DNA from: an uncultured Paracoccaceae bacterium
GTDB lineage: Bacteria; Pseudomonadota; Alphaproteobacteria; Rhodobacterales; Rhodobacteraceae
Assembly: GCA_947487205.1 (NCBI GenBank)
Contig: CANKVU010000008.1
Location: 62,001 to 126,000 of the forward strand
Reading direction: 5' to 3'
Length of the DNA: 64,000 nt
The position numbers and the translations under genes are program-made. Of the stretch, positions 30,986-45,613 are shown in pieces (position 1 is the stretch's first letter; each line of letters opens with the position of its first letter). The notes under the pieces are model-generated. The model saw nothing but the letters and a program-made list of their open reading frames with translations, made no database searches and was not told the DNA's origin.

Positions 30986-31803
30986 AGGTCCGATACCTTT
31001 TGCCCGCCGAACAGGTGATCCATCGTCACCGAAGGTTGCGCGCATCCCGCCTCGCCCACGATCCTGGCCGGCACCCCGGCCACGGTCTTCATCGGGGGAA
31101 CCTCTTCCAGAACGACAGATCCGGCCGCGATGCGGGAGCAGTTTCCGACCCGGATCGCGCCGAGAACCTTCGCCCCGGCACCGATTAGGACACCGTCCCC
31201 GATCTTGGGGTGGCGATCGTCGTCCTCCTTTCCGGTTCCGCCAAGCGTCACCGAATGCAGCATGGAAACGTTGTCGCCGACGCGGGCCGTCTCGCCGATC
31301 ACGATCGAATGGGCGTGGTCGATCATGATCCCCTTGCCCACCCGCGCCGCTGGATGGATATCGACCCCGAAGACCTCGGAGGTGCGCATCTGGATGAAAT
31401 AGGCAAGGTCGTGCCTTCCCCGCTCCCACAACCAATGCGCAACGCGGTATGCCTGCACCGCCTGATAGCCTTTGAAGAACAGGAGCGGCTGAACGAAGCG
31501 GTGGCAGACCGGATCACGCTCGTAGGTCGCGACAAGATCGGCCCTGGCCGCCTCGCCCAACCGGCCGTCGTCGGCATAGGCCTCGTCCGCAATCTCGCGC
31601 AGGATCTGTTCGGGCATCTCGCCCGATGCGAGTTTCAGCGACAGCCGGTAACTCAACGCCTTCTCGATGGAATCGTGGTGCAGGACCGACACATGGAACA
31701 ACCCACCCATCAGCGGCTCGTTCCGGGTCGCCTGTTCGCTCTCCTCGCGGATCCGGGACCAGACCGGATCGACGCTGGAGACATGGCTTAAGGTGACGCT
31801 CAT
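30982..31803 (-). CDS. cysE: Serine O-acetyltransferase
   Basis: Acetylates L-serine to feed cysteine synthesis. The 273-residue protein has the all-helical SATase N-terminal domain (DPVWSRIREESEQATRNEPL) and the left-handed beta-helix of hexapeptide repeats at about 150-235 (GVDIHPAARVGKGIMIDHA, GDNVSMLHSVTLGG, GDGVLIGAGAKVLGAIRVG). It lies 74 bases downstream of the last gene transfer agent gene on the same strand; the same neighbour flanks the GTA cluster in Rhodobacter capsulatus. CTATATGATC at about 31841-31850 (minus strand) could be its own -10 region. Confidence 0.95.
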   Translation of the reverse strand: MSVTLSHVSSVDPVWSRIREESEQATRNEPLMGGLFHVSVLHHDSIEKALSYRLSLKLASGEMPEQILREIADEAYADDGRLGEAARADLVATYERDPVCHRFVQPLLFFKGYQAVQAYRVAHWLWERGRHDLAYFIQMRTSEVFGVDIHPAARVGKGIMIDHAHSIVIGETARVGDNVSMLHSVTLGGTGKEDDDRHPKIGDGVLIGAGAKVLGAIRVGNCSRIAAGSVVLEEVPPMKTVAGVPARIVGEAGCAQPSVTMDHLFGGQKVSDL

Positions 31804-31877: not shown

Positions 31878-34800
31878 TCATGCCACCATCAGGTCGAGCC
31901 GCCGCGTCGGCCCCGGTCCGAAGGTAAGCGAGACCTGCGCCACGTCCAAGGTGGCGGGGCCGGTCCCGTCCTCCGCCCGCGCCGCCGCGGCATACCGCCA
32001 ACGGGGCTCCGAGGTCATTTCCTCCCGCACAACCTGACCGGCCCGCAGGATCCGCACACGATAGAGCTCCCGCTCCTCCCCCAACGGCACATCGAGACCT
32101 TCCCACGCATCGCCCATCGTCCGGGTCCGTCTGATCCAGGAAACAAGAAGGTCGTCACCCTCCATCCTTTGGTTGAGATGGACCGGGGCATAGGGACGCA
32201 AGCCCACGCCCTGAAAGGTGCGCGTCTCGTCCGCATAGGACGGCGCCGTGTAGGGATCGCCCGCCGGGCCGTGGCGGAAATGCCGTGCAACCCCGCGCAG
32301 GCTCGCCTGCTGATCGAGCCGCCGCAGGGATCGGTCGAGGATGACCACGCGGCTTCCAACGGGCCAGCGCGGCGGCATGACGCCGTCCGTGCCCAGCTGG
32401 CCCCGCAATCGCATGGTCAGATCCCAGGTGCGATTGCCGACAAGCGTCGCGTTGCGAAACTGGATGATCTCCCATTGATCGTCCGTCCCGGACCCGATCG
32501 CCAAGGCATTCGCACCGGCAAGAATCGCCTCGTCAGCGACCGAAGCGCAGGCGCCCGACATCAAGCGCACCCGCAGCGCGGCGCCCCGATCCCATATCCC
32601 GACAGGTCCTGCCTCCAGCTCCGTTTCGGTCGTCCCGAGGCGGGAGGCGGTCGGAAGAAGGGTATTCAGCCGGTACCCGTCCCCCGTTACCGAAGAATAG
32701 ACCGCCACGCCCGAAGCCGGCCAAGGCCGGGCGGATGCGGCGACCCACGGCGTAGCATCGCCCTCTTCGCCAGTCAGGGACGGAAGGTCCAGGAACACGG
32801 TCAGAGGCGGACCGGCAGGCGAGGGATCCGTGAAGTCCCCCGTGACACCGGACGCTTCGGGATCGATCACCACGTCGCTCTGGCCATAGATGCCCGGCTC
32901 GATCCGCACCGCCTCTATCTGCTGGAACTCGGCCTGCTCGGAACGATCGACGCGATAGAAGCCGCCATGCGCCTCGACCACGTCCCCCGCCCCGATGCCA
33001 AGGCGCGACGGCGGCAGGCCGAAACGGATTCGGTCTTGCGCCACCCGGCTTTCGGCCAGCCACCGCTCCGCAATTCGCCGTCCCTCCTCCTCTAGCAGGA
33101 CAAGGGGAAGCTCGGTCCGCGCGATCACGTCGCTTCGCCCCTGGGGAAAGACGGCCTCGCTCGTCGCGGCCTCGAAATTCTCGTCGAGCCCGAAATATCC
33201 GACGGATACGCGGTCGCGACAATCGGCCTCCGGCGCACGGATCGTGAGTACGTCCCCCGATTGCTCGGGATTCTGAACGACCTCCTCGCTGCGCACGGCC
33301 CCGTCGACCTGACCTTTCCGCATGCGGAAGACCAGCGTCCCGTTCCGCTCCACGACGTCGAACCCATGCGCGAGGATCAGCGGTTGAAGGGCCGAGCGCG
33401 CATCCGTCACCTCCGCGACCGCATAGCCGCGCACGACACCTTCTAGGCCTTCCACATCGATCTCCGTCACACCGGAGCGGTGGCATATTTCCTGCACCAC
33501 GGAGGCCAGCGTGCGGCTCCCCGTGCGGCCGCTCAGCCAATGGCCCCGGTAATGGTTCGGACCGTCGCTCCAGACCGACGACAATCCGGGGAATTGGGGA
33601 TAGGGGCGCGCGTCCCACGTCCAGACGTAAGCGTGCGCCATATCGAGCATGGGCCCCCCGTAAACGGAAGAGGCGGGATTGTTTTCGGCCTCGGACCAGA
33701 ACTCGGAATGCGCGCGCAGATACTGGACCTGGATATGGTCGTCTCGCTGCCCCGTCGAATAGAAGGGCCGGGCGGATTCGGAGGATTTGGGGTCGAGAAA
33801 CTTGTTGGGCTGATTGGTCCCCTTGTCGATCGCCGCGCAGCCGAGCTCCGTGAAACGGATCGGCTTGGATTGTGGAACCCATTCTGTCGGCTGCCCCTCA
33901 GGAACGCCGCTCCGCCGCTCCACATGATGTTCCGACCACCAGGACCGAATGTCCTTGTAGCGGTAAACCCAGGGCGATCCGTGTCCGTCCGTGATGGCTA
34001 CCCGGTTCTGCCGATCCCGGGCTTCACGATCGGGATAGAACCAGTCGTAGCCCTCGCCGCCCAGGATGTTGGCCTTGAGGTAATCGAGGTTGTGCACCGA
34101 CTTCCACGCGGCGTCCGCTTCGTCCGCGCGCTCGCGCCAATCGGATAGCGGCATGTAATTGTCGATGCCGACGAAATCGATGTCCCGATCAGCCCATAAC
34201 CGGTCGAGATGGAAGTAGACATCGCCTGACCCGTCCGCGGGATGGTACCCGAAATATTCGGACCAGTCCGCCGCATAGCTCACCTTGACGTTCGGGCCCA
34301 GAATTCCCCGGACATCACGGGCCAGGTCGCGCAGTGCCTCCACCACGGGAAAACCACGGGCACCCCGGATCCAGGTAAGCCCACGCAGTTCCGAGCCCAC
34401 GCAGAAACTTTCGAGCCCGCCCGCCGCCGCGCAGAGATGCGCGTAATGCAGGATGAAGCGTCGGTAGGACCATTCGGCAGGGCCGGTATAGTCGATCACG
34501 ACCTGTTCGGATCGCAAGTGTCGGCCGTCCGGCCCCCGGTCGCTCCAGCGGACGGTAAAATCCTGCGGCCGCGCGGCCCCCATGAAAGCCGCGACCTCGT
34601 CGTCGGCGGTCCCCGTCCCGTCGGGGGATCCCGGTACTCCGGGGGCGCGCGACGTGGTGATCCGACCTCGCCATGGCAGCGGCAGTTGGGAGGCCCCTCC
34701 ATAAGGGTCCGGCAGGTCGGAATCGGCCAACTGGTCCATCAAGATGAAGGGATAGAACATCACGTCCTGTCCCGCCCCCGACAGGGCGCGGATCGCCTCG

Positions 34801-35873
34801 ACCACGCTCTGGTCGGCGGGCGTCCCGCCATAAACCGGATGCCCGTCGATCCTCGGCACCTCGCGAGCCGAACCTCGGTCGATGCCGCCCGATCGCCAGG
34901 GCATTTCGACACCGTCCGACCGACTGTCTTCGATCTTCGGCTCGACACGACATTCCGCGCAACGCAGATCGCCCCCGAACCATGACACGACCAGCGATGT
35001 CGCGCCGCATCTGCGGAGTTCCCCCGTCTGGATCGCCAGCGCCGCGCTGAAGTCCGTGCTCGCGATGCGGGAATGCGCATTGGCGTACCGCGATACCCCC
35101 GGTTCGTCCTCGTAGCGCACCGGCGTCGTGGCCAGGGCGTATTCCCCCGTTCCCGGTATCAGCGCGACACCCGGGACATGCTGTGCCAAGTCGCGCCGGT
35201 CACCCGGCCAGTGGTTGCGGATCACCTCGAAGCTGAATTGCGGTACCCTATTTCCGTAAGGCGTCAGATCGAGATTCTCGATGACCACATACGCCAGGCC
35301 GCGAAACGCCGGAACGCGGCCCGTGCCTTGCTCGGCCTCGATCAGCGGATCGGGCAGTTGATCCCCGGTTCCGCGATAGGTTCTGAGGTCCAGCTTGTGG
35401 CGATCGATCTCCTGTCCGTCCGCCCATACCCGGCCCACGCGCGCGATGGGTCCCTCGCACAGGCCAAGGGCGAGCGAGATCGTATACGTGTATTCGCGCG
35501 TGGTGACAGCCGCGGCCGAGGGGGCGGTTCCCTTCCCGGCACCGCCTCCGCCGCCGATCTCCTGCTCCGTCTCCGTCGCGTGTTCCTGGAACGGCGACGA
35601 CCAGATCACGTGAGCCGGCAGGCGCATCTGCCCGTAGAGCTGCGCGATCGCCGTGCCCTCGCCGGCCGATGTGAGCCGCAGGCGGTCCATCCGTCCGTGC
35701 TCTACGGGCTGTGAGCCGCCGCCCAGAACGTTGCCGAGTACCGCACTGTCGACCATGCGGCCCACCGTTGCACCGACTGCCCGGCCGACCACCGCGGTGC
35801 TGAGGCCGAGTACTCCGCCGGTGGCGGATGCGCCCAACGCGCCGCCGGCCGCGGCGAGAACGATCGTCGCCAT
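31878..35873 (-). CDS. GTA baseplate multidomain protein (megatron, g15)
   Basis: The largest structural protein of the gene transfer agent, 1331 residues. The N-terminal 50 residues are small and Gly/Ala-rich (LAAAGGALGASATGG). A TIM-barrel-like domain (GTA_TIM) lies at roughly 440-740, including VKVSYAADWSEYF and DIDFVGIDNYMPLSDW. Phage-tail-3-like domains follow, with LASVVQEICHRSGVTEIDVE. In the RcGTA particle the homologue forms the baseplate that contacts the host envelope. The start overlaps the g14 stop by one base (TAATG). It ends 74 bases before cysE. The length is normal for the family and no frameshift is seen. Confidence 0.93.
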   Translation of the reverse strand: MATIVLAAAGGALGASATGGVLGLSTAVVGRAVGATVGRMVDSAVLGNVLGGGSQPVEHGRMDRLRLTSAGEGTAIAQLYGQMRLPAHVIWSSPFQEHATETEQEIGGGGGAGKGTAPSAAAVTTREYTYTISLALGLCEGPIARVGRVWADGQEIDRHKLDLRTYRGTGDQLPDPLIEAEQGTGRVPAFRGLAYVVIENLDLTPYGNRVPQFSFEVIRNHWPGDRRDLAQHVPGVALIPGTGEYALATTPVRYEDEPGVSRYANAHSRIASTDFSAALAIQTGELRRCGATSLVVSWFGGDLRCAECRVEPKIEDSRSDGVEMPWRSGGIDRGSAREVPRIDGHPVYGGTPADQSVVEAIRALSGAGQDVMFYPFILMDQLADSDLPDPYGGASQLPLPWRGRITTSRAPGVPGSPDGTGTADDEVAAFMGAARPQDFTVRWSDRGPDGRHLRSEQVVIDYTGPAEWSYRRFILHYAHLCAAAGGLESFCVGSELRGLTWIRGARGFPVVEALRDLARDVRGILGPNVKVSYAADWSEYFGYHPADGSGDVYFHLDRLWADRDIDFVGIDNYMPLSDWRERADEADAAWKSVHNLDYLKANILGGEGYDWFYPDREARDRQNRVAITDGHGSPWVYRYKDIRSWWSEHHVERRSGVPEGQPTEWVPQSKPIRFTELGCAAIDKGTNQPNKFLDPKSSESARPFYSTGQRDDHIQVQYLRAHSEFWSEAENNPASSVYGGPMLDMAHAYVWTWDARPYPQFPGLSSVWSDGPNHYRGHWLSGRTGSRTLASVVQEICHRSGVTEIDVEGLEGVVRGYAVAEVTDARSALQPLILAHGFDVVERNGTLVFRMRKGQVDGAVRSEEVVQNPEQSGDVLTIRAPEADCRDRVSVGYFGLDENFEAATSEAVFPQGRSDVIARTELPLVLLEEEGRRIAERWLAESRVAQDRIRFGLPPSRLGIGAGDVVEAHGGFYRVDRSEQAEFQQIEAVRIEPGIYGQSDVVIDPEASGVTGDFTDPSPAGPPLTVFLDLPSLTGEEGDATPWVAASARPWPASGVAVYSSVTGDGYRLNTLLPTASRLGTTETELEAGPVGIWDRGAALRVRLMSGACASVADEAILAGANALAIGSGTDDQWEIIQFRNATLVGNRTWDLTMRLRGQLGTDGVMPPRWPVGSRVVILDRSLRRLDQQASLRGVARHFRHGPAGDPYTAPSYADETRTFQGVGLRPYAPVHLNQRMEGDDLLVSWIRRTRTMGDAWEGLDVPLGEERELYRVRILRAGQVVREEMTSEPRWRYAAAARAEDGTGPATLDVAQVSLTFGPGPTRRLDLMVA

Positions 35874-36307
35874 TACGTTATCTCCTCGGGAAAGTCGAAG
35901 GCCGCGACCACGCGGCGATGCCAGGGCCGGCTGAGCGACGTTTCGCAAACCGCCCGGCCGCTATAGGCGTGAACGAACCGCGGCGCCGGCCCGGGAACGG
36001 TGACGATGCCCAGGTGCTTGGCAACACCGCCCTCGCGCATCCGGAACAGAAGAACCCGGCCCGGCACGGCATCCTGCGCATCCCGTTCGACCAGGAACGT
36101 CCGCGCCGCCTCCAGCAGCGTTTCACGCCCGCCCGATTCCGCCCAGTCCCGCGTGTAGGGCGGCGGAACCACCGGCTCCCGTCCGAACAGGTCGCGCCAC
36201 ACGCCCCGGATCAGACCGAGGCAATCGCATCCCGCGCCCCGGCGGCTCGCCTGGTGGACATAGGGCGTGCCGATCCAGTCGCGGGCGATGTCCGCCGCCC
36301 GGCTCAC
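35873..36307 (-). CDS. GTA NlpC/P60 cell-wall peptidase (g14)
   Basis: A 144-residue NlpC/P60 hydrolase expected to sit at the tail tip and cut peptide cross-links during DNA entry. The catalytic cysteine lies in GCDCLGLIRGV (Cys29), the histidine in VAKHLGIV. The opening IARDWIGTPYVHQASRRG is the family substrate-site pattern. It overlaps g13 upstream by four bases and g15 downstream by one. It matches RcGTA g14 in position, size and motif. Confidence 0.93.
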   Translation of the reverse strand: MSRAADIARDWIGTPYVHQASRRGAGCDCLGLIRGVWRDLFGREPVVPPPYTRDWAESGGRETLLEAARTFLVERDAQDAVPGRVLLFRMREGGVAKHLGIVTVPGPAPRFVHAYSGRAVCETSLSRPWHRRVVAAFDFPEEIT

Positions 36308-37170
36308 GCGCCGTTCCCCCGCCGGGGATAGGCGGTCAACCAGTCCTCACCGGGAAGGAACGGGAAACCCCGGAAATTCACGACGTTGTCGAACTTGCGG
36401 CGGCAGGTGCCCACGGTCTTGTCGCAGCCCGCTTGCAGAACGAGGCGCGTGCCTGCCGTCACCCCGCCCGGCATCGAATCCCATAGTTCGATCCGCCGCG
36501 ACCCGTTTGCCGGGCGGTCCGCCTTGATCACCCTGTTCAACCCTTTCGCCGGGCCATCCATCACGGTCAACGTGCCACGGTCGAACCATCCCGCCCCGTG
36601 ATCGAGAGCGGGGCCGTAAAGGATCGTGCCCTCGGGCGCGGCGCTCAGCGCGAATTCCGCCCGGTAGGCCGGCAGGGTCAGGTCCACGCTGCATTCGGCG
36701 TCACCCAGGATCGCCCGACACGGCTTCTGGTACAACCGACCCTGCGGCAGGTTCAGGGCTTCGGTCAGTCCCCGCAACTCCGCCCTGAACGCCCCGCCCG
36801 CACGTTCGATCTCGCCGATCCGCCCGCGGAACTGCAACACGCGTTGGGCGGGATCGGCCCAGTTCACCCGCCAGATGACCACCCTCGCGCCGTCGAACCG
36901 GCCGGCAAGGATCTCCGCCTCGCTCAGCCCGGCATCCGAGATCGCGCCCATCGCTTCGCTGTTGTCGACGGCAAGGCCGGTCGTCTGTTCCAACGCACGC
37001 GCTGACAAGGCATCCGTCGGAACGAAGGCGGTACCGTCGAACGTCATCGGCTGGTCATGATCCGTGAACGCGAAGATGCGTCCATCGGTGCGGGTGATCC
37101 TCCAGCAACGGCAGAGGGTGGTCGTGCCGGTGGCCAGATGATCTTGCAGCGTCTGGGGAACCGGGGTCAC
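36304..37170 (-). CDS. GTA tail hub protein, DUF2163 (g13)
   Basis: A 288-residue tail-tip hub protein of the DUF2163 family, similar in design to the lambda gpL hub. Four cysteines in the second half (Cys151, Cys160, Cys249, Cys256) are spaced as expected for a bound iron-sulfur cluster; two more are at 20 and 22. Family signatures are DHDQPMTFDG and FRGFPFLPGEDW near the C-terminus. It overlaps g12 by four bases and g14 by four bases. Assignment as g13 rests on order and family. Confidence 0.92.
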   Translation of the reverse strand: MTPVPQTLQDHLATGTTTLCRCWRITRTDGRIFAFTDHDQPMTFDGTAFVPTDALSARALEQTTGLAVDNSEAMGAISDAGLSEAEILAGRFDGARVVIWRVNWADPAQRVLQFRGRIGEIERAGGAFRAELRGLTEALNLPQGRLYQKPCRAILGDAECSVDLTLPAYRAEFALSAAPEGTILYGPALDHGAGWFDRGTLTVMDGPAKGLNRVIKADRPANGSRRIELWDSMPGGVTAGTRLVLQAGCDKTVGTCRRKFDNVVNFRGFPFLPGEDWLTAYPRRGNGA

Positions 37171-37799
37171 AGCCGCACCTCGATAACGGGGATGTTCGGA
37201 GCCTGGCCGGCGTTGAACGTGTCGATCGACACGTCGATGCGGTCCATGTCGAACCTGGCGGGAACATCGAATTCGAAACCCGCGGTGACGAGTGCCCCGA
37301 CCGCCGGAGCGGCGTCGAACACGATTTCGCCCGTGGCGGGATCAACCTCCACACCGGCGCCCGGCGCGATTTCCTCACCGGCACGTCCGACGACGATGCT
37401 GTCGACGACGGGTTTCGTGATCGGGCGCCGATACGCGGTCGGGCCGGTTCCGTACGTCTTTGCCAGTTGGAACGTCCGGGTTTCCCCGTCACCCGTTCCG
37501 ATCACCTGGTCGAGGCACCCGACTGGGTGTCCGAAGAGCCCGGACCTGAAATCGGCCCAATCCTTCCACCGGAAGGCGTGAAGCTGCCCTCGCCGCTCCT
37601 CGAAGAACGCGATCAGCGTCTCCAGGTCGGACAGGGATCGCAATCCGACACCCGCGTCATAGCGGCGCCGGGAATGCTGCCATGGCGTGTTCCGCTCCTC
37701 GAACCCGTTCGAGAGCGTGACGATCTCCGTGCGTCGTTCAGGCCCACCGGTGGCTCCGAAGCTGAGCTTGGCGGGAAACCTCACGTCGTGAAAATCCAT
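37167..37799 (-). CDS. GTA distal tail protein, DUF2460 (g12)
   Basis: A 210-residue DUF2460 protein that joins the tail tube to the baseplate. It opens with FHDVRFPAKLSFGATGGPER, then the family stretch TLIAFFEERRGQLHAFRWKD, and ends with VSIDTFNAGQAPNIPVIEVR. The start is the ATG at 37799 because GAGGAGG lies seven bases before it; an ATG two codons earlier is too close to that site. It ends in a four-base overlap with g13 and begins 12 bases after the tape measure gene. Confidence 0.92.
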   Translation of the reverse strand: MDFHDVRFPAKLSFGATGGPERRTEIVTLSNGFEERNTPWQHSRRRYDAGVGLRSLSDLETLIAFFEERRGQLHAFRWKDWADFRSGLFGHPVGCLDQVIGTGDGETRTFQLAKTYGTGPTAYRRPITKPVVDSIVVGRAGEEIAPGAGVEVDPATGEIVFDAAPAVGALVTAGFEFDVPARFDMDRIDVSIDTFNAGQAPNIPVIEVRL

Positions 37800-37811
37800 G
37801 ACCATGCCTCC

Positions 37812-38483
37812 TCAGCGGTTTCTAGATCCACGCGAGAGCGCGCGCCCGAGCCGCGCCGCGATCTGCGTCTCGGACCGGCGGAAGCTTTCGGCATCCGGGG
37901 AGGAGATGTTCATCACCACCTGCACCGGTGCCGGTCCGCCGCCCGAGCGCACGCCGAGCCGGCCGTCCGCCCCACGAGAGAGCGGCAGGATAGCCTCGGG
38001 CCCGGCTTCCCCCATCAAGCCGGTGCCACCGCGCATCGGAAACGTGGTGGCCCTGTCCACGACCCCCCCGCTGGCGAAAGGCGTGACGCGCGCCGCCGAT
38101 ATCGGTCGTCCGCCGGCAAATGCGCCCCCCCCGGCGAAGGGCAGCAATCCCTGCACCACGCTCTGGATACCGCCGGAAAATGCCGCCCCCGCCTGCTTGG
38201 TCACTGGGGCAACCGCCGCCCGGTAGGCGGACCCGATCGTGGATTGAGCCGCCCCCTTCAGCGCGTCGGAAAGGCGCTTGCCCCCGAAGACCACGCCTTC
38301 CAGTCCGGAGCGGAAGCTCTTCGACAGGCTCGACGACAGGTCGGAGACATGACCTTTGGTCTCGCTCACGGTCGACTGCATCGATCGCATCTCCGACGTG
38401 AACTCGGACAGGATTGCCTTGGCGCCGCCGACCCCCTGTTCAAAGGCGGCGACATACTCCTCGAATGTGTCCATCTCAGACAT
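37812..38483 (-). CDS. GTA tail tape measure protein (g11)
   Basis: A 223-residue tape measure protein that sets tail length and is probably released into the recipient envelope. It has a helical N-terminus with TSEMRSMQSTVSETKGHVSD, a small-residue and Gly-rich centre (GLLPFAGGGAFAGGRPI) and the phage tape-measure signature GLMGEAGPEAILPLSRG. It is very short next to phage tape measures (often over 700 residues), as expected for the short GTA tail. The ATG overlaps g10.1 by eight bases. Confidence 0.9.
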   Translation of the reverse strand: MSEMDTFEEYVAAFEQGVGGAKAILSEFTSEMRSMQSTVSETKGHVSDLSSSLSKSFRSGLEGVVFGGKRLSDALKGAAQSTIGSAYRAAVAPVTKQAGAAFSGGIQSVVQGLLPFAGGGAFAGGRPISAARVTPFASGGVVDRATTFPMRGGTGLMGEAGPEAILPLSRGADGRLGVRSGGGPAPVQVVMNISSPDAESFRRSETQIAARLGRALSRGSRNR

Positions 38484-38685
38484 TCCGGTTCCTCTTCTCG
38501 TCATCATCGTCCGGGAAGGCCGCGCGGAGCGCCTCGAATCCGGCGCGATCCAGCTGACCGGCGCCTCCGCCACGCCCGAGCATCACCATCAGTTCGGCCG
38601 GTGTCAGCGCCCAGAATTCCGCCGGGCGCAGCCCCAATTCGCGCAGCCCTGCGCGCATCAGGGCTGGCCAGGCGATCCGGCTCAT
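38476..38685 (-). CDS. GTA tail assembly chaperone-like protein (g10.1, DUF2376)
   Basis: A 69-residue protein of the small family found between g10 and g11 in RcGTA-type clusters. It has WPALMRAGLRELGLRPAEFW followed by LTPAELMVMLG and an acidic-basic tail. Its position before the tape measure matches that of phage tail assembly chaperones. Start and stop overlap the neighbours by four and eight bases, so translation is tightly coupled. Confidence 0.85.
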   Translation of the reverse strand: MSRIAWPALMRAGLRELGLRPAEFWALTPAELMVMLGRGGGAGQLDRAGFEALRAAFPDDDDEKRNRNV

Positions 38686-38996
38686 CCCGGCAGTTCGAAG
38701 GCCCGGGAGAGCAAGGCCCCCGCCACGCGGGTCGCCTCCATGGGCCCTCCCGCGATCTCCGAGGCGAGCAGATCCCTGCTCGTGCCCGACCAGCCCGCTG
38801 CCCGCAGGCCCGCCGCGAGAAGAGCGACCACGTCCCGGGCCGAAAAATGTCCGGTTTCGAACCGCTCCACGAGCTCGACAAGCGATTTTTCCTCCAGCTC
38901 GGCTTCCACCTCGACGAGGGCGCCAAGCGTCAGTTTCGCATCATACGCGGTGCCATTCACCGTCAGCGCCACTTCTCCGCTCCAGGGATTTGTCAT
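38682..38996 (-). CDS. GTA tail chaperone-like protein (g10)
   Basis: A 104-residue gene transfer agent family protein, equivalent to RcGTA g10. It opens with NPWSGEVALTVNGTAYDAKL and has the conserved LGALVEVEAELEEKSLVELV. With g10.1 it occupies the place of the G/GT chaperone pair in lambda-like phages, but as two separate overlapping genes instead of a frameshift product. It overlaps g9 by four bases (ATGA). Confidence 0.87.
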   Translation of the reverse strand: MTNPWSGEVALTVNGTAYDAKLTLGALVEVEAELEEKSLVELVERFETGHFSARDVVALLAAGLRAAGWSGTSRDLLASEIAGGPMEATRVAGALLSRAFELPG

Positions 38997-39406
38997 GACA
39001 GGGCCGCGAAGGTGAGGGCGCCCGCCGATGCAAGGCTCAGCTCGTATGTCGCCTCGCCGTCATGGGCCCCGGCATATTCGATGGCGGTGATCTGGAATGG
39101 GCCTTCGACGACGCCGAAATCGGGGATGATCACGCGGAAATCCGGGGTTTCCCCGTCGAAGAAGATCTGGCGCGCGCGCTCGTCCGTGGCGGCGTCCTTG
39201 AAGACGCCCGACCCAGATACCGAAGCGCTGCGGACACCCGCTCCGCCAAGCAGCTCCCGCCAGCCCGCACTGTCGAGATTGGTCGCATCGACCGTCTCGG
39301 CGTTAAACGAAATGCGCGAGGCACGAAGTCCGGCCACGGTCTCGAAGAGGCCCGCGCCGTCCAGATCGACCTTGATCAAGAGATCCTTGCCGTATTGGGC
39401 AGCCAT
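38993..39406 (-). CDS. GTA major tail tube protein (g9)
   Basis: A 137-residue tail tube subunit (phage major tail protein, TP901-1 family). Visible signatures are AAQYGKDLLIKVDLDGAG, RASRISFNAETVDATN and RVIIPDFGVVEGPFQITA. The ATG is preceded by AAGGGAGA. The short 17-base gap before it and four-base overlap after it place it firmly in the operon. It should be the most abundant tail protein. Confidence 0.92.
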   Translation of the reverse strand: MAAQYGKDLLIKVDLDGAGLFETVAGLRASRISFNAETVDATNLDSAGWRELLGGAGVRSASVSGSGVFKDAATDERARQIFFDGETPDFRVIIPDFGVVEGPFQITAIEYAGAHDGEATYELSLASAGALTFAALS

Positions 39407-39423
39407 ATCGCTGTCTCCCTTCC

Positions 39424-39837
39424 TCAGGTTTCGTCGAAGACACGCGCGCGGAAGCGCAGGTCGATCCGTCTCGTGCCGGTGCGGCGCATCCTCCGCGCCT
39501 GGGCCTGCCGGAACCACAGTCCGTCGCAGCGACCTCGTCCAAGCACGAGGGGCGCTGACAACAGCGCGTCGGAAACGGCGCCCGCCGCCTCCTTCGCGTC
39601 GGCGAACCCCGCATCGTCGCTGACCACGGCGATCTCGAAGTCGTGGATCGCCCCCCGTTCGCCGTAATCGGATCGGTCCAGGACACGTTCTTCCCCGATG
39701 GAAACGTACAGGGCGGGCATTTCACCCGGCGGCACCCCATCGAAGATCGCCGACCCCGCGATCGCGGCCAGAGCCGCATCGTCCGCAAGGCGCCGATAGA
39801 CCGCCTTCTGCAGCGCGGCGGAAACGGAATAGGTCAT
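39424..39837 (-). CDS. GTA tail terminator protein, DUF3168 (g8)
   Basis: A 137-residue DUF3168 protein, the tail-completion or tail-terminator role at the head-tail joint. It begins SVSAALQKAVYRRLADDAAL and contains the family VPPGEMPALYVSIGEE and the C-terminal RRIDLRFRARVF. It is coupled to g7 by an ATGA overlap. The start at 39837 gives the family length. Confidence 0.88.
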   Translation of the reverse strand: MTYSVSAALQKAVYRRLADDAALAAIAGSAIFDGVPPGEMPALYVSIGEERVLDRSDYGERGAIHDFEIAVVSDDAGFADAKEAAGAVSDALLSAPLVLGRGRCDGLWFRQAQARRMRRTGTRRIDLRFRARVFDET

Positions 39838-40172
39838 GTGGCACGCTCCTCCTCGATGCGGCACGAAAGCCAGCGGGCCGTCGGATCGGTTTCCTGAACG
39901 GCCAGGATCGCGAAACGGCGCTCGCCCTCGCTGAAGCGGTTGCCTTCCACGGGGCGGGACGGGGCGCCGAAGGGGGCCGCCCGAACCGTCGCGGTCCACA
40001 ACGAGCGGCTGAGCGTCGCGGCCTCTCCTTCCGTCAGTCCCGAAGACCGTGGCCTGAGATCCGCCCAGACGGTACCGCGGGTGACCCACGTCTCGTCGAG
40101 GCCGCCAGCCCCGTCCGGGACCAGGACCCGTTCCTCCAGCACAAGCGGCCGGGTAAGGTTCAACCGTCCCAT
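39834..40172 (-). CDS. GTA head-tail adaptor / stopper (g7)
   Basis: A 112-residue phage head-closure-type protein (SPP1 gp16-like). It has LTRPLVLEERVLVPDGAGG, GTVWADLRPRSSGLTEGEA and the terminal RWLSCRIEEE. The start overlaps the g6 stop by one base (TGATG) and the stop overlaps g8. Function is inferred from family and position; it closes the connector after DNA packaging. Confidence 0.88.
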   Translation of the reverse strand: MGRLNLTRPLVLEERVLVPDGAGGLDETWVTRGTVWADLRPRSSGLTEGEAATLSRSLWTATVRAAPFGAPSRPVEGNRFSEGERRFAILAVQETDPTARWLSCRIEEERAT

Positions 40173-40753
40173 CAGACCGACCTCGCCAGCCGGATCGGAC
40201 GATAGGGCGACAGGAGCGCGCGGACCCCGTCCGGCAGGCCGCGATCGCCCTGCCGGTCCTCGTAGCGGGCACTGGCAAGCGACACGACGGCAAGGGCTAG
40301 ATCCTGCGGCACCTCCGACCATGCCTGGCCGAAGCCCGCGGTGAAGACCACTTCCGCTTCGCCGCCCGTCGGAATGGAAGGCATCAGATAGCCGCTCGAC
40401 ACCAGGGCCGGGCGAACCGGATCGCGACGCATACGGTAGCGGTCCCGCGAGACCAATTCCCGCGTGCCGTCCCGGTATGCGATCGACACACCGCCGATGC
40501 CCGTCACCGGCGCCCTAGGAAGAAGATGGTGGGCGGTTCCGGTCCAGGCATCGAGGCGCAAGACGAATTCGCGGTGCAGCAAGGCCTTGGCCGTCAGGGT
40601 CTCGACCTCGGTCAGGGCGCCCCGCAGGATGCGCTCGAGCAGATCGTCCTGAACCGTGTCGTCGGAGAATCCGGTACCCAGGCGCAAATGACCGCGCAGG
40701 TCGGCCAGGGGCAGCCTGTCCTTTCCGATGGGTGTTGTCTCGACCAGATACAT
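40172..40753 (-). CDS. GTA head-tail connector protein (g6)
   Basis: A 193-residue connector protein (HK97 gp6-like, phage_connect family) that forms a ring under the portal. Residues 12-60 hold the helical core (KDRLPLADLRGHLRLG, then LLERILRGALTEVETLTAKA); the C-terminal part has VPQDLALAVVSLASARYEDR. AGAGGAG precedes the ATG. It is separated from the capsid gene by 84 bases containing two strong hairpins, the largest gap inside the cluster. Confidence 0.88.
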   Translation of the reverse strand: MYLVETTPIGKDRLPLADLRGHLRLGTGFSDDTVQDDLLERILRGALTEVETLTAKALLHREFVLRLDAWTGTAHHLLPRAPVTGIGGVSIAYRDGTRELVSRDRYRMRRDPVRPALVSSGYLMPSIPTGGEAEVVFTAGFGQAWSEVPQDLALAVVSLASARYEDRQGDRGLPDGVRALLSPYRPIRLARSV

Positions 40754-40774
40754 ACGCGCGCTCCTCTGCCGGGC

Positions 40775-40830
40775 TGCGGGCCGGATCCTCCGGCCCGCAT
40801 CGTTCGCTTCGGTCCGGCCAGCGGCCGGAC
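40775..40830 (-). terminator. Tandem hairpins between capsid gene g5 and connector gene g6
   Basis: Two perfect hairpins lie back to back. The first has an 11-bp stem (40775-40785 with 40789-40799, arm TGCGGGCCGGA, loop of three). The second has an 8-bp stem (40812-40819 with 40823-40830, arm GTCCGGCC, loop of three). On the coding (minus) strand they follow the capsid stop by seven bases. No T-run follows, so they may stabilise the capsid mRNA end or attenuate rather than fully terminate. Confidence 0.6.
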
Positions 40831-40837
40831 GACGGAA

Positions 40838-42025
40838 TCAGGCGGCGGCGAAACGCAGCAGCTTGATCGCGGCAAAGTCGCTTACGTCGCCGCCGACCCG
40901 CTTCGTGGCGTAGAAGAGGACATGCGGCTTGGCGCTGAAGGGATCGCGGAGAATTCGCAGGTCCGGACGCTCGGCAATCGTGTAACCTGCCCCGAAATCG
41001 CCGAACGCGATCGCGTCCGCGCCGTCCGAGATGTCGGGCATGTCCTCGGCCACCAGGACCGGATACCCCAGAAGCCTTGCCGGCTCGCCCGCCGCGAGTC
41101 CGTCGGACCATAGGAAGCGTCCGTCGGCATCCTTCATCCGGCGGACCATCCCGGTCGTGCGCGAGTTCATCACGAAGCTCGCATTGGCCCGGTACTGGGC
41201 GCCCAGCGCATAGACCACGTCGATGATCGCATCGGCGGTCCCGATTTCCCCGTCGACGCCCGTCGCGACGTAGCCGAGCGTTCCCCAGGTCCAGTCCGCG
41301 TCCGGTACCGCCGTGTGATCGAGGAAGCCCCGGGGTTTCTGACTGCCATCGCCGAGGATGAAGGCCGCCGCTTCCGCCCGCGCGAAGCTCTCGGCAATGC
41401 GCTGTGCAAGCCAGCCTTCGATGTCGAAAGCCGCGTCATCGAGAAGCCGCTGTGACGCTTTCGGCAGGGCCGACAATTCATGAAGCGGGATCGTGATCCG
41501 GTCGATCTGGGACGTGGCCGTTTCGGTGACGGCGCCGTTCTCGCTGGCCCAGCCCGCGCCCATCTCGGTCGTGTCGATCAGCACGTCGTACGATGTCGCC
41601 TCGACGTTGACGACGTTCGCGACCCGGCGCAGGGACGCGGTGGAACGCAGGACCGACTGCACGCTCTCGGATGTCTTGGGATCGACCAAGTAGCCGCCGT
41701 CCCCGGCCACCGTGGTGGAGAGCGCCTTGCCCTCGAGCACCAGCCCCCGCAGCCCATCATCGTCGCCCGAGCGAACGTAGTCACCGAAGGCCTTGCGGTG
41801 GGGAACCTCGGTTTCCGAGGCGGTCGCAAGGGCGGGGCGGGGCGCGGCGCGCGATTTACGATCCAGCATTGTCACTCGCTCTTCCTGTTTCTGCAGCTTG
41901 CGGGCCATGTCCTGCTTGAAGGAGCCGAGCTCCCTCATGAAATCGCTCATCGCGGATTTCACCTCGTCGGCGGCGGTGGGCATGGCATCCCCGTCCGCCC
42001 GAGCCTTGGTCTCGGTCGTGGTCAT
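40838..42025 (-). CDS. GTA major capsid protein, HK97 fold (g5)
   Basis: A 395-residue HK97-type capsid protein. Residues about 20-60 are a coiled-coil scaffolding segment (SAMSDFMRELGSFKQDMARK), which the g4 protease should remove. The mature domain has GDGGYLVDPKTSESVQSVLR, ALPKASQRLLDDAAFDIEGW, FVMNSRTTGMVRRMKDADGR and GDFGAGYTIAERPDLRILRD, all typical. GAGGACAG precedes the ATG. It lies 36 bases after g4 and is followed by tandem hairpins. Confidence 0.95.
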   Translation of the reverse strand: MTTTETKARADGDAMPTAADEVKSAMSDFMRELGSFKQDMARKLQKQEERVTMLDRKSRAAPRPALATASETEVPHRKAFGDYVRSGDDDGLRGLVLEGKALSTTVAGDGGYLVDPKTSESVQSVLRSTASLRRVANVVNVEATSYDVLIDTTEMGAGWASENGAVTETATSQIDRITIPLHELSALPKASQRLLDDAAFDIEGWLAQRIAESFARAEAAAFILGDGSQKPRGFLDHTAVPDADWTWGTLGYVATGVDGEIGTADAIIDVVYALGAQYRANASFVMNSRTTGMVRRMKDADGRFLWSDGLAAGEPARLLGYPVLVAEDMPDISDGADAIAFGDFGAGYTIAERPDLRILRDPFSAKPHVLFYATKRVGGDVSDFAAIKLLRFAAA

Positions 42026-42061
42026 TTCGCTGTCCTCGATGGTGGTTCCTGTTATCCGGCC

Positions 42062-42595
42062 TCAGCCGTCAGCCAGCTCGCGGCTCGCGCTCCGCAGCGC
42101 CTCGGCCAGCGCGCGCCAGGGCGCATCCCCGCCCTTGGCACCGACCCGCGCCTCTGGAAGCATCGGAAAAGTCACAAGCGACACCTCCCAGAGTTCCACG
42201 TCCTGCAAGAGGCGTCGTCCCTGCCCGTCGCGGCCAGCCTTGCGGGTGCGATACCCGATCGAGAGTCCGTCGATGGCGCCGGCCGATACCAACGCCGCGG
42301 CCTCGGCCCCCCGCGCGGTTTCCAGGATCAGGCGGCCCCGCACATAAAGGCCGCGGTCGTCCTCCCGGACCTCGTCCCAGACCCCGATCGGGGTGTTCGG
42401 GTCATGCTGCCACAGCATCGCCACCCGTCCGCCCCGGCGTGTGAGATCGCCCAGCCAGCGCAAATAGGCACCCTTCTCGACGACATCGCCGCCCTGGTCC
42501 GTCGACCCGAAAAGCGAGGCATAGCCCTCGATCACATGGCCCGCCGTCAGCGTGACGTCGCCGTCCCCGGCGCAGTACTTGGTTTCGAGTTCCAT
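42062..42595 (-). CDS. GTA prohead protease, HK97 type (g4)
   Basis: A 177-residue prohead serine protease that trims the capsid scaffold. It shows the family opening VIEGYASLFGSTDQGGDVVE, the catalytic histidine in AMLWQHDPNTPIGVW and the catalytic serine in IDGLSIGYRTR, then WEVSLVTFPMLPEARV. AAAGGG precedes the ATG. It begins 12 bases after the portal gene, leaving no room for the g3.5 gene that occurs in R. capsulatus. Confidence 0.93.
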   Translation of the reverse strand: MELETKYCAGDGDVTLTAGHVIEGYASLFGSTDQGGDVVEKGAYLRWLGDLTRRGGRVAMLWQHDPNTPIGVWDEVREDDRGLYVRGRLILETARGAEAAALVSAGAIDGLSIGYRTRKAGRDGQGRRLLQDVELWEVSLVTFPMLPEARVGAKGGDAPWRALAEALRSASRELADG

Positions 42596-42607
42596 CGCTG
42601 TACCCTT

Positions 42608-43771
42608 TCAATCCTCGGCGACGGGAAGCCCCAGAAGCGACCGCTTCTCGGCATCCGTCAGGAAATCGGCATCGGCCACGCGGGCCCACTGGGCGTCCCG
42701 TTCCGCGACGAGCGCCGGGACCTGATCGAGGTCGATCCGCATCGACAGGGGCGCGGAGTCGAATGCGCCCAGCCAGTGGGCGAGCGCGGCGGCGACACGG
42801 TTGGCCAGGGGCAGCACCGTCAGGCGATAGAATGCCCTGTTGGCCTCGGCGTAATTCGCATAGGTCGCATCGCCAGGAATCCCGAGCAGCATGGGCGGCA
42901 CGCCGAAGGCCAGGGCGATCTCCCGTGCGGCGGCCTCCTTGGTCTTCTGGAACTCCATGTCCGACGGGGAGAAGCCCATCGGCTTCCAGTCCAGCCCCCC
43001 CTCCAACAACATGGGACGCCCGGCGTTCCGCGCCCCCTGGTGATGGGTTTCGAGTTCCACGACCAGACGATCGTACTGTTCGGGGCTCAACATCCCATCG
43101 CCACCGTGAAACACGATCGCTCCGGACGGCCGCGCCGCGTTGTCCAGAAGCGCCTTGGACCAACGCGAGGCTGAATTGTGCACGTCCATCGCCGAAGCGG
43201 CGGCATGGATCGGTGACAGGCCGTAATGGTCATCCTGGGGGTGAAAGCTTTTGACGTGACAGATCGGCGAGAGCCCCTCCGAAAGCGAGAACCGGTGCTC
43301 GCGCCCGCCGACGGTGTACACGTAGGCCACGGGCCAGCCATCCGCCCCGGGAACCACCGCCATCCGTTCCGACCGGAGCACGTGCAGTTCGAAGGGCAAC
43401 CCGCCTGCACCCACGGCCTCAACATACCCGTTACCCGTCAGGAGGATCTGGCCGTAGAGAGATTCGAGCAGTTCGGCCTGTCCCTGCCCGCCGTTCGGCC
43501 GTGCCATCAGGTCGAGGACGGGATGTGTGTCCATCCGACCGCCCTCTGCCTCCAGGATCAGGGGCAGGGTAGCGGCCGCCTCCGCGATCATCTTGACCGA
43601 ACGGAAGACGACCGGGTTCCCGAGAAAGCCGTTGCGCGTCAGCGATGTCGTGTCACGCCCACTCCACGCTACGCGGCCGGAGCCGCTATAGGCGATGGCG
43701 GGGGCCGACAGGCCGCCGACGGCGCTCGCTTTCGTCTCCTCGGAATTCGCTCGTTTCAGGAACTGAAACAT
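42608..43771 (-). CDS. GTA portal protein (g3)
   Basis: A 387-residue HK97-family portal protein, the twelve-fold ring through which DNA enters and leaves the head. Signatures are FLGNPVVFRSVKMIAEAAAT, MARPNGGQGQAELLESLYGQ, SRWSKALLDNAARPSGAIV and IALAFGVPPMLLGIPGDATY. The start at 43771 has GAAGAGGAG before it; an in-frame ATG 12 codons earlier lies inside the terminase gene. It begins 19 bases after the terminase stop. Confidence 0.94.
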   Translation of the reverse strand: MFQFLKRANSEETKASAVGGLSAPAIAYSGSGRVAWSGRDTTSLTRNGFLGNPVVFRSVKMIAEAAATLPLILEAEGGRMDTHPVLDLMARPNGGQGQAELLESLYGQILLTGNGYVEAVGAGGLPFELHVLRSERMAVVPGADGWPVAYVYTVGGREHRFSLSEGLSPICHVKSFHPQDDHYGLSPIHAAASAMDVHNSASRWSKALLDNAARPSGAIVFHGGDGMLSPEQYDRLVVELETHHQGARNAGRPMLLEGGLDWKPMGFSPSDMEFQKTKEAAAREIALAFGVPPMLLGIPGDATYANYAEANRAFYRLTVLPLANRVAAALAHWLGAFDSAPLSMRIDLDQVPALVAERDAQWARVADADFLTDAEKRSLLGLPVAED

Positions 43772-43790
43772 TCGCCGCTCCTCTTCCGCC

Positions 43791-45137
43791 TCACAGGCTT
43801 CGCACACCCGGTCTGCGGGGCGTGTTCATCAATTCGCTCAGCGCCCAGACCAGGGCGTCGACCCGATCGGGCGACCCCTCGCCTTGGAAGCCCCGGACAG
43901 ACATCAGCGCCATCTGATCCTCCAGCGCGGACAACCCGTCCAAGTGCAAAACCCGCCCCTGCTCGTAGAGAGCCGCCACCGGTTCCGCTCTGGAGACCTT
44001 GCCCCGGGAGGCGTGAACGCCTCTGTAAGGTACCGAACGGTCGATTTGCCTCAGCAACGCCTCGACCAGATCACCGCCCTGATTGACTTCGGCGACGATC
44101 CTGTCGGCTGCATGACGCTCGAAGGCGGAGATCGCGGCGTGGGCCCACCCGACGGGCGTCGCACCCGCCACGCTCGCATCCTCCAAGACGACGTACCGAG
44201 AGCGACCGGGATCGGCACCGGCGACCACGATCCCGCACATGTCGGACCGCGGCCCGCCCGAGACGGGCGGGTCCACGGCGACCACCACGCGGCCCAATTC
44301 CGGCACTTCCCCCATCCGGCATCGGGCCAGCAGGTCCGCGCTCCACAGCGCGCCCTCCACGTCCTCCAGCAGACGGCCATCGATCTCCTGAGCGCCGAGC
44401 CGGGTATTGGCATAGCGCTCCGTCACTTCCGCCAGGAAGGACGGGGCTAGGTTCGCACGGTTCGCGGATGTCGGAGCGGTGGTCAGGACGGTCGATGAAC
44501 TTGCCAGAATCCGCTTCAAAACGGGCACGTTGCGCGGAGTCGTGGTGACGCAGGATCGGGGTGCCGTTCCCAGCCGCAGGCAAAACTGCAACATGTCCCA
44601 GGCCTCTTCGCCACGGCGCCATTTGCCGAGTTCGTCGGCCCATGCCGCGTCGAATTGCGGCCCGCGCAATGCTTCCGGATCCTGCGCGGAGAACACCTGC
44701 GCGACCGCTCCGTTCTGCCAGCGCAGCCGACGACGTCCCGCTTCCCAGGTCGGAACACGATCAGGCGGCGAACAGGCGAGGATTCCCGAATCCCCGAAAA
44801 CCATCACGTCGCGCGCCTGATCATAGGTCTCGCCGACCAAGGCAAGACGACGCGCGCGCCCCGGATCCAGGGGGCATGGGCCCTCCACCATGGTCCGGAC
44901 CCATTCGCTTCCCGCGCGTGTCTTGCCCGCTCCCCTGCCGCCCATGATCACCCATGTCCGCCAATCCCCCGCGGGTGGCACCTGGTGGTCCAACGCCCAG
45001 AAGCGGAACAGGTACGGGAGCGCCGCCAGGGCAGACCCGCTCAGCGTTTCAAGGAACTTCGTCTCCGTGGAACGCGGTGCGGAGGCGATCCAGGCGGCCG
45101 CGGACTTCCTCTTCGGCTTGCCGGAGGTCAACGGCAT
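43791..45137 (-). CDS. GTA terminase large subunit (g2)
   Basis: The DNA packaging motor, 448 residues as called. Walker A is MGGRGAGKTRAG and the nuclease domain begins VVVAVDPPVSGGPRSDMCG with acidic metal ligands. RcGTA homologues are reported to package host DNA by headful with little sequence preference; nothing here predicts a cos or pac specificity. The start is doubtful: the ATG at 45137 makes an unusual 89-base overlap with the small terminase gene, while homologues usually begin nearer the segment LSGSALAALPYLFRFWALDH. No standard start codon exists between that segment and the overlap. Confidence 0.92.
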   Translation of the reverse strand: MPLTSGKPKRKSAAAWIASAPRSTETKFLETLSGSALAALPYLFRFWALDHQVPPAGDWRTWVIMGGRGAGKTRAGSEWVRTMVEGPCPLDPGRARRLALVGETYDQARDVMVFGDSGILACSPPDRVPTWEAGRRRLRWQNGAVAQVFSAQDPEALRGPQFDAAWADELGKWRRGEEAWDMLQFCLRLGTAPRSCVTTTPRNVPVLKRILASSSTVLTTAPTSANRANLAPSFLAEVTERYANTRLGAQEIDGRLLEDVEGALWSADLLARCRMGEVPELGRVVVAVDPPVSGGPRSDMCGIVVAGADPGRSRYVVLEDASVAGATPVGWAHAAISAFERHAADRIVAEVNQGGDLVEALLRQIDRSVPYRGVHASRGKVSRAEPVAALYEQGRVLHLDGLSALEDQMALMSVRGFQGEGSPDRVDALVWALSELMNTPRRPGVRSL

Positions 45138-45393
45138 GGGTGCAGGCCGTTCCGGAATGCGACCGCCTGATCTCATCCAGCTTCTTCCTCTCGTCGAATA
45201 CCACCTGAACTGCCCTGTGAACTCCAACCAGGGCCCGTCGAACCTCGGACTCCGGCATCCCGGTATCTCCCGCTTCGAGTTGCCGGCGAATATCGACGAG
45301 GGCTCTCATCACCCCGCGGAAATGCTGCTCCGCGGCAGCCACCATCTCCCGGGCAAGATCTTCCTCGTCCTCGTTTGCGGGATCGTCGCCCAT
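45049..45393 (-). CDS. GTA terminase small subunit-like protein (g1)
   Basis: A 114-residue acidic helical protein at the head of the cluster, matching RcGTA g1 in size and place. It has an acidic N-terminus (DDPANEDEEDLAREMV), long helices with HFRGVMRALVDIRRQLEAG and a C-terminal helix AEEEVRGRLDRLRTAFHG. GGGG lies five bases before the ATG. In R. capsulatus this protein is a small terminase that lacks specific DNA binding. Similarity is judged from general pattern and position, since the family is poorly conserved. Confidence 0.8.
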   Translation of the reverse strand: MGDDPANEDEEDLAREMVAAAEQHFRGVMRALVDIRRQLEAGDTGMPESEVRRALVGVHRAVQVVFDERKKLDEIRRSHSGTACTHAVDLRQAEEEVRGRLDRLRTAFHGDEVP

Positions 45394-45415
45394 ACATCCC
45401 CGTCCTCGTCGCTGC

Positions 45416-45613
45416 TCACATCGCAGTGCCGGTAAACGGGAATTCCCGTATCCAGCCCTTCTCACAGGCTGCGGGCGTCGCGTTACATCTACCCTTGCCC
45501 ACCGAACGCTTGCCAAATGAGCACCCGCCACCGAGATGCATTGCGCGCCACCGAGGCGCCCCGGCGTAAGAGATTTCGCGCCGGCAGATGATGCAGCTTA
45601 GTTTGCTTCCCAT
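45416..45613 (-). CDS. Possible cysteine-rich mini-protein upstream of g1
   Basis: An open frame of 65 residues ends 22 bases before g1. It has a Cys-x-x-Cys pair (KLSCIICRREISY) followed by isolated cysteines in GGGCSFGK, KGRCNAT and AACEKGW, and a composition (Lys, Ile, Phe, Cys) unlike the Arg/Ala/Pro-rich false frames of this GC-rich genome. No convincing ribosome binding site precedes the ATG, and an in-frame longer version exists. It could be a zinc-binding leader peptide of the GTA operon or chance. I recognise no family. Confidence 0.3.
   Translation of the reverse strand: MGSKLSCIICRREISYAGAPRWRAMHLGGGCSFGKRSVGKGRCNATPAACEKGWIREFPFTGTAM
45436..45449. promoter_or_regulatory. 14-bp perfect palindrome before the GTA operon
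   Basis: ACGGGAATTCCCGT is a perfect palindrome 43 bases upstream of the g1 start codon. It is a candidate operator or RNA hairpin for the gene transfer agent genes. It also lies within the tail of the possible mini-protein, so only location and symmetry support a role. Confidence 0.4.

Follow-up and report, generated by a model that had tools for sequence, protein, structure and literature searches.

The window, a stretch of 64,000 nucleotides (C8:62001-126000) from the 82-contig, 99.82% complete genome of an uncultured Paracoccaceae bacterium, carries on its minus strand, at positions 31878-45393, a gene transfer agent (GTA) cluster of 16 uninterrupted open reading frames (ORFs) in the order of RcGTA, the GTA of Rhodobacter capsulatus. 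Judged by its sequence, the cluster alone is an ordinary member of the well-known RcGTA-type kind. It is the loss, elsewhere in the genome, of the holin-endolysin pair, under continued selection on the structural genes, that makes the cluster a variant worth testing. Its genes, g1-g15 and g10.1, are given below; E-values without a named database refer to Pfam, and percentages to protein identity.

45049..45393, minus strand: g1, small-terminase position, 114 amino acids (aa), identified from its position and from homology that extends only to genus relatives
43791..45137, minus strand: g2, large terminase, 448 aa; Terminase_6N 3e-22, Terminase_6C 4e-22; Walker A motif GGRGAGKT; 66% to R. capsulatus
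42608..43807, minus strand: g3, portal; Phage_portal 9e-86; PDB 6tba_1A, RcGTA portal, 1.7e-173
42062..42595, minus strand: g4, prohead protease; Peptidase_S78 6e-29; 64% to R. capsulatus
40838..42025, minus strand: g5, major capsid protein; Phage_capsid 3e-89; PDB 6tb9_C5, Rcc01687, 2e-177
40172..40753, minus strand: g6, head-tail adaptor; PDB 6tba_2A, Rcc01688, 1e-34; Pfam Phage_connect_1 slightly below the cut-off
39834..40172, minus strand: g7, head completion/stopper protein; Phage_HCP 1e-16
39424..39837, minus strand: g8, tail terminator; Tail_completion_gp17 3e-27
38993..39406, minus strand: g9, tail tube; Phage_tail_2 2e-47
38682..38996, minus strand: g10, tail chaperone; Phage_TAC_11 (GTA-gp10) 8e-27
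38476..38685, minus strand: g10.1, second tail-chaperone-like ORF, 69 aa; 61% to R. capsulatus (residues 6-59), 81% to the sister genome (1-63)
37812..38483, minus strand: g11, very short tape measure, 223 aa; 49% to R. capsulatus; assigned from position and homology
37167..37805, minus strand: g12, distal tail protein; DUF2460 3e-85
36304..37170, minus strand: g13, baseplate hub; Phage_phiJL001_Gp84_N 4e-60, Phage_BR0599 9e-27
35873..36307, minus strand: g14, NlpC/P60-type peptidase; NLPC_P60 0.0012 (below the Pfam cut-off); 58% to R. capsulatus
31878..35873, minus strand: g15, megatron; GTA_TIM 2e-145, Rcc01698_C 3e-33; PDB 6tba_8A, 1407 bits

Identity of the Cluster

The nearest relative found, referred to here as the sister (L005), is an uncultured Rhodobacteraceae isolate whose capsid protein is 93% identical to that of the window. 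Palleronia pontilimi (L006) belongs to the host genus: the holin match C12:201636-201956 is identical for G003, which contains L006, and for G008 of the same genus. The protein at the g1 position shows 59% identity to that of the sister and 28% to that of P. pontilimi and is matched in 37 of 80 loci, with no BLAST match in R. capsulatus L060 and no Pfam or PDB match. Neither Pfam nor PDB gives a match for g11. The start codon of g3 is unsettled, a shorter form of the portal being possible. The g14 peptidase retains Cys28 and His98, which we read as the catalytic pair.

The best PDB matches of four proteins, namely the megatron, capsid, portal, and adaptor, are RcGTA chains, and a protein-by-protein comparison with RcGTA, as suggested in a preliminary description of this DNA, gives identities of 40-78% to the R. 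capsulatus L060 proteins gene by gene (BLAST), g1 excepted. The complete 16-gene set is found in 11 of the 13 clusters compared, the remaining two being without only a BLAST-detectable g1. With Pfam E-values down to 2e-145, RcGTA chains as best PDB matches, and 16-gene sets in relatives, a chance origin of the match can be taken as excluded. The RcGTA-type identity proposed in the preliminary description is supported by these matches, and also by the gafA, rcc01866-type, and orphan fibre genes and the shared mltG/cysE flanks described below.

The fifteen consecutive minus-strand genes of that description, said to be intact and in canonical order, stand as to order, strand, and open frames, but the count is 16. 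Both of its "two chaperone-like proteins" are present, and g10.1 (38476-38685), which is one of them, is the extra gene. That most genes overlap by one to eight bases holds barely, for eight of the 15 junctions; two overlaps are larger (17 bases at g2/g3 and 89 at g1/g2), and five junctions are gaps of 6-84 bases. The g3-g4 gap is only 12 bases long, which leaves no room for the extra RcGTA gene expected there, presumably g3.5. In one draft of the genus, G017 (L180), g6 has an in-frame stop at codon 70, which is not present in g6 of its near relative G011.

Loss of the Holin-Endolysin Pair

Besides its structural cluster, RcGTA comprises gafA, rcc01866, rcc00171, rcc00555/556, and ghsA/B, with head spikes of the rcc01079/01080 type. 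The rcc00555/556 genes are the endolysin and holin assigned to release in R. capsulatus, according to the available parts of two papers (PMC8601537, PMC3423380). A search of this genome with the profile of the GTA holin (PF11351) gives no match. Since the profile matched in none of the 14 control genomes, genomes expected to hold a GTA holin were searched too, and it was found in three of four, namely two R. capsulatus strains and P. pontilimi, with no match in the sister. The profile of the GH108 endolysin (PF05838), searched in four genomes, matches in two (R. capsulatus and P. pontilimi) and gives no match in this genome or the sister. When 100 relatives were searched, PF11351 was present in 12 of the 14 genus genomes, the exceptions being this genome and the sister, and at the family level in 50 of 60 genomes, this genome counted among the 60. 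A GTA_TIM match is found in 52 family genomes, which is not a number of GTAs because GTA_TIM also matches prophage tails; five of these are without PF11351, namely this pair and three fragmented or incomplete drafts.

In P. pontilimi, the gene order at the lysis locus is argC-ccmE-endolysin-holin-small ORF-orfX-ccmF, and both lysis genes occur at this place, behind argC-ccmE and before ccmF, in all 12 other genus genomes. We have compared 17 lysis loci, 13 together with L098, L099, L144 (this genome), and L145 (the sister). In 15 of these, the alignment of the endolysin runs from residue 1 to residue 202 or 203 of 203, and that of the holin starts at residue 1 and covers 119-167 of 167 residues. 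At L144, which is contiguous within a 157-kb contig, a 155-aa ORF matches residues 78-202 of the 203 endolysin residues at 46% identity, compared to 68-78% for the full-length endolysins of other genus members. PG_binding_3 is present in this remnant, and the GH108 catalytic domain gives no match. No holin match is obtained at L144 at E 1. In the sister, the ccmE-ccmF locus holds neither endolysin nor holin, and two weak holin matches (E 0.016 and 0.79), both outside this interval, are taken as chance.

As the holin and GH108 families were found neither in the genome nor at the lysis locus, where only the remnant is left, release by the RcGTA route looks unavailable in this host. That lysis genes are absent had been read in the preliminary description as pointing to domestication. 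Indeed there is none in the cluster, but those of RcGTA also sit elsewhere, and here that copy is gone. Its statement that the cluster appears functional by sequence can be retained for the structural genes but not for the GTA holin and the GH108 endolysin.

An ancestral difference as the origin of the missing lysis genes is ruled out, all 12 other genus genomes carrying both. Behind ccmE, a 60-base leader is common to the pair (score 60 versus a shuffle maximum of 25, with the other 12 members at 23 or less), as is a 45-base junction before the small ORF (score 31, with shuffle maxima of 25 for the last 60 bases and 28 for the last 120, and 0 of 500 shuffles reaching 31). Because both junctions are shared by the pair, the loss probably predates their split, and the alignments point to a single loss on the common stem as the probable event. 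A membrane-protein-like ORF, orfX, lies between the lysis cassette and ccmF (L145:5358-5846, minus strand); it is matched in the sister (37%), with no match at the lysis locus of this genome.

The Small Third Gene of the Lysis Cassette

Across the genus, an ORF of 64 aa with a single N-terminal transmembrane (TM) segment, as judged by inspection, lies 3' of the holin. That this small TM ORF is a replacement of the holin was considered and dropped, since it is a third cassette gene throughout the genus. It is found in 12 of the 14 genus genomes and additionally in G024 and G059; six further weak matches (E 0.0008-0.09, among the best 20 of 100) are treated as chance. Neither the small gene nor orfX is matched in G007 (L183) and G016 (L191), which keep the endolysin and the holin, so that the losses seen are complementary.

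The small protein is 93.5% identical between this genome and the sister (omega 0.011, see below), and 17 columns are invariant among 14 small-protein sequences. At a permissive limit of 10, Pfam Holin_BhlA (PF10960) is matched by 12 of 14 members, the best E-value being 0.0007. The holins of the BhlA family are very small and have one TM helix, as described in the available part of PMC9527704. No confident PHROGs match was obtained for the small protein and no PDB match for the small family. Four records of the phage collection at E 8 are taken as chance, and a scan of the viral contigs confirmed none of them. PADLOC returned nothing for the four proteins tried.

Selection and Evolutionary Rate

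The 16 GTA genes and the small gene of this genome were each compared with their counterparts in the sister by pairwise codon models. The GTA genes have omega values of 0 to 0.154, which are rough and safe only in their direction because dS is largely saturated: 11 of the GTA genes have values of 1.36-3.4, and in the remaining five dS is 7, 30, or unbounded. The 2dlnL against omega = 1 is at least 55 in every test, including that of the small gene. All 16 GTA genes are under purifying selection between the pair.

Rates were compared over 4218 GTA columns and 1589 housekeeping columns, with 40 bootstraps, on a tree of fixed topology that comprised R. capsulatus and 13 genus genomes. Branches whose housekeeping length did not exceed 0.005, including the G011 and G017 tips, were dropped, and G005 was excluded, only 126 of 299 GTA_TIM positions being matched. 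The two tips of the pair have GTA/housekeeping ratios of 1.90 and 1.91 (bootstrap 1.5-2.5), and the other, lysis-proficient tips listed have 1.27-4.12. Nothing in these ratios points to relaxation after the split. Most groupings are the same in the GTA tree and the housekeeping tree. In G007 and G016, the genomes without a match to the small gene or orfX, the GTA genes are fast relative to the housekeeping genes, and the G007 tip also has a high ratio, 4.12.

GTA Genes outside the Window

An orphan DUF2793 tail-fibre gene is located on C15. Its product is 60% identical to that of the sister (residues 1-285) and 46% identical (residues 16-316) to that of the sole DUF2793 gene found in R. capsulatus, which we take to be rcc00171. 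This orphan (L004/L096) adjoins an apparent transposase gene. Only one DUF2793 gene, of the prophage type, was found in P. pontilimi. A gafA homologue (DUF6456) with an open frame lies at C7:162375 and is 80% identical to that of the sister, 57% to that of P. pontilimi, and 46% to that of R. capsulatus. Its divergent neighbour shares 43% identity with the gene that R. capsulatus has at this position, and is thus of the rcc01866 type, rcc01866 being a divergent neighbour of gafA according to the available part of PMC9638019.

Proposed Mode of Release

On the gene content and its conservation, we consider it moderately probable that the cluster is a maintained GTA with rewired release, most likely through the BhlA-like holin and a hydrolase from elsewhere. 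The cluster encodes an RcGTA-type GTA with its head, tail, and packaging motor and would be switched on by GafA, and the particles would package short pieces of host DNA, as RcGTA is known to do; the structural part and its control are established for that system. The RcGTA exit appears to be broken here, with the endolysin reduced to a remnant without the catalytic domain and the three-TM GTA holin gone. The BhlA-like 64-aa protein is the best candidate for the membrane step, and the enzyme that cuts the wall would have to be a borrowed one, either the M15 peptidase encoded by a resident prophage or some other murein hydrolase. Because the structural genes stayed under purifying selection between the pair, we infer that particles are probably still made and released. 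A variant of this proposal, which we consider quite unlikely, is an exit through the single BhlA-like holin without a dedicated endolysin, the cassette being cut from three genes to one. Release would then perhaps be gentler or slower, and the lysis cost to GTA producers would be lowered.

Several points weigh against the rewired release. A replacement for the endolysin was not identified, the hydrolases named above being candidates. The small protein of this genome has no Pfam match of its own, and the Holin_BhlA E-values of its relatives are marginal. The saturated dS bears on the omega values as stated above. The GTA/housekeeping ratio on the stem of the pair, 4.34 (bootstrap 3.5-6.2), is the highest listed, in a near-tie with 4.33 on the G007/G016 stem, and relaxed constraint around the time of the loss is possible. 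Apart from the shared junctions, nothing dates the selection since the split relative to the loss, and part of the shared leader could be ancestral. Finally, G021, G025, and G036 (drafts of 97% completeness in 1160 contigs, 82%, and 91%, respectively) have no PF11351 match yet keep GTA_TIM.

It is also conceivable, though somewhat unlikely in our judgment, that the GTA is made and released through a host death pathway, such as an immunity-type system like the CARD-NLR-like LypABC of Caulobacter, or through the lysis genes of another phage, rather than through the BhlA-like protein. Such a route has a precedent in Caulobacter crescentus, in which a canonical holin-endolysin is absent and LypABC serves for GTA release, according to the available part of PMC13236601, and the C26 prophage of this genome combines a GTA-like tail with a Peptidase_M15_3 gene (C26:37829-38503, 9e-28). 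However, a gene 93% identical to the fibre gene of this prophage occurs in P. pontilimi, where the GTA lysis genes are retained, and the prophage therefore does not qualify as a specific replacement. PF01223, the endonuclease family of LypC, gave no match in either this genome or that of the sister, in a search that covered LypC alone of the three Lyp proteins and had a positive control in Caulobacter. This is a weak test because the PF01223 domain is dispensable in Caulobacter, as stated in the same part of PMC13236601. That the cluster is no longer released, the structural genes being kept for another reason or their loss just beginning, is improbable to about the same degree as the single-holin exit. 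The loss of both lysis genes would fit this scenario, as would the high ratio on the stem to which the loss maps, but both sisters have open frames in all 16 genes, the dS between them being at least 1.36 and omega well below 1; moreover, gafA and the fibre gene are retained, and the tip rate ratios are ordinary.

We find it very improbable that this is an ordinary RcGTA with normal lysis, the genes of which are present but were missed through an assembly gap or divergence. The assembly does consist of 82 contigs, profiles can miss divergent holins, and PF11351 failed in all 14 control genomes. An assembly gap is nevertheless rejected by the contiguous lysis locus with its remnant in the 157-kb contig, with which the separate assembly of the sister agrees, while PF11351 finds the gene in R. 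capsulatus, P. pontilimi, and 50 of 60 family genomes, and the completeness is 99.82%. Scarcely credible, and rejected, is a GTA-like prophage instead of a gene transfer agent. There are phages with related megatrons, at about 41% identity at best among the best 30 of 144 records, and this genome has two further GTA_TIM clusters. However, no integrase, repressor, replication, or lysis gene was seen within the cluster, as the preliminary description had noted, or among its immediate neighbours; the mltG/cysE flanks are fixed, the GTA and housekeeping trees mostly agree, and gafA is present.

Comparison with Known Systems

The system, known here from its genes alone, shares with RcGTA the gene order, domains, short tape measure, and mltG/cysE flanks, as well as gafA, the rcc01866-type gene, and the orphan fibre. 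It differs in the loss of the GH108 endolysin and three-TM holin, in a BhlA-like third lysis gene that was not found at the R. capsulatus lysis locus, in having no room for g3.5, and in a g1 that is unrecognisable by BLAST. The GTA of C. crescentus (CcGTA) likewise has RcGTA-family structural genes without the holin-endolysin pair, according to the available part of PMC13236601, so the unlinked GH108/three-TM pair is a feature of RcGTA release and not of every GTA. In contrast to CcGTA, the PF01223 nuclease of LypC was not found in the present pair, and the ancestral lysis locus still contains a holin-like gene and a remnant of the endolysin, because of which the loss is directly visible here. 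The small protein resembles the single-TM holins BhlA, UviB, and TpeE (PF10960) in its size, N-terminal TM segment, weak profile match (12 of 14), and place in a lysis cassette. The known members of that family are often from Firmicutes, according to the available part of PMC9527704, whereas here the gene stands beside GTA lysis genes in Rhodobacterales, at marginal E-values. Rhodobacter phages with GTA-type tails (RcKai, RcRhea, and others) have megatrons with about 41% identity over 95% at best among the matches listed. Phages of the RcKai/RcRhea type are free phages with their own genomes, whereas the cluster in the window is without phage life-cycle genes.

The persistence of GTAs despite the lysis of their producers is an open question, and the modelling in the available part of PMC6209664 finds that the lysis cost overwhelms the benefits of exchange. 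A species pair without the standard lysis genes, with its GTA genes under selection and beside 12 genus-mates that keep them, constitutes a natural experiment in this respect. It is a further case, after Caulobacter, of a lineage whose GTA release must do without the GH108/three-TM pair, and a third gene is added to the lysis cassette of the genus. Among the open-licence titles and abstract openings listed (for example, the best 30 of 93 and 25 of 1,004), there is no report of a loss of the lysis pair in Rhodobacterales.

Flanks and Other Elements

The mltG and cysE flanks are common to R. capsulatus and this cluster, and the features adjoining the cluster are the following.

46078..47232, minus strand: mltG, conserved 5' neighbour; YceG 3e-79; a match in 58 of 80 loci, not all of which extend as far as mltG
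45394..46077, minus strand: mltG-g1 interval, 684 bases, without a convincing gene; the expected place of a putative cluster promoter
30982..31803, minus strand: cysE, conserved 3' neighbour; SATase_N 3e-36; a match in 28 of 80 loci, many of them too short to reach cysE

One side reads mltG-fabF-acpP-fabG-fabD, and the other cysE, a DivIC-family gene, fba, an SDR gene, and pgk. The names of mltG, cysE, and DivIC are from Pfam, and those of fabF, acpP, fabG, fabD, fba, SDR, and pgk were read from the sequence.

The C26 prophage (L146, L094, L147) has a megatron with 43% identity to g15, a gpA-type terminase, an 805-aa tape measure, and the M15 peptidase; its fibre gene, besides the P. pontilimi counterpart, is 86% identical to a gene of the sister. 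A partial GTA-like tail cluster lies at a contig end (C28 35551-41733, L095), with an in-frame TAA in the megatron match. Recipients of RcGTA need ComEC-type uptake, and a comEC homologue (Pfam Competence, 5e-63) is located in the window at 56885-58975 on the minus strand, about 11 kb from the GTA cluster.

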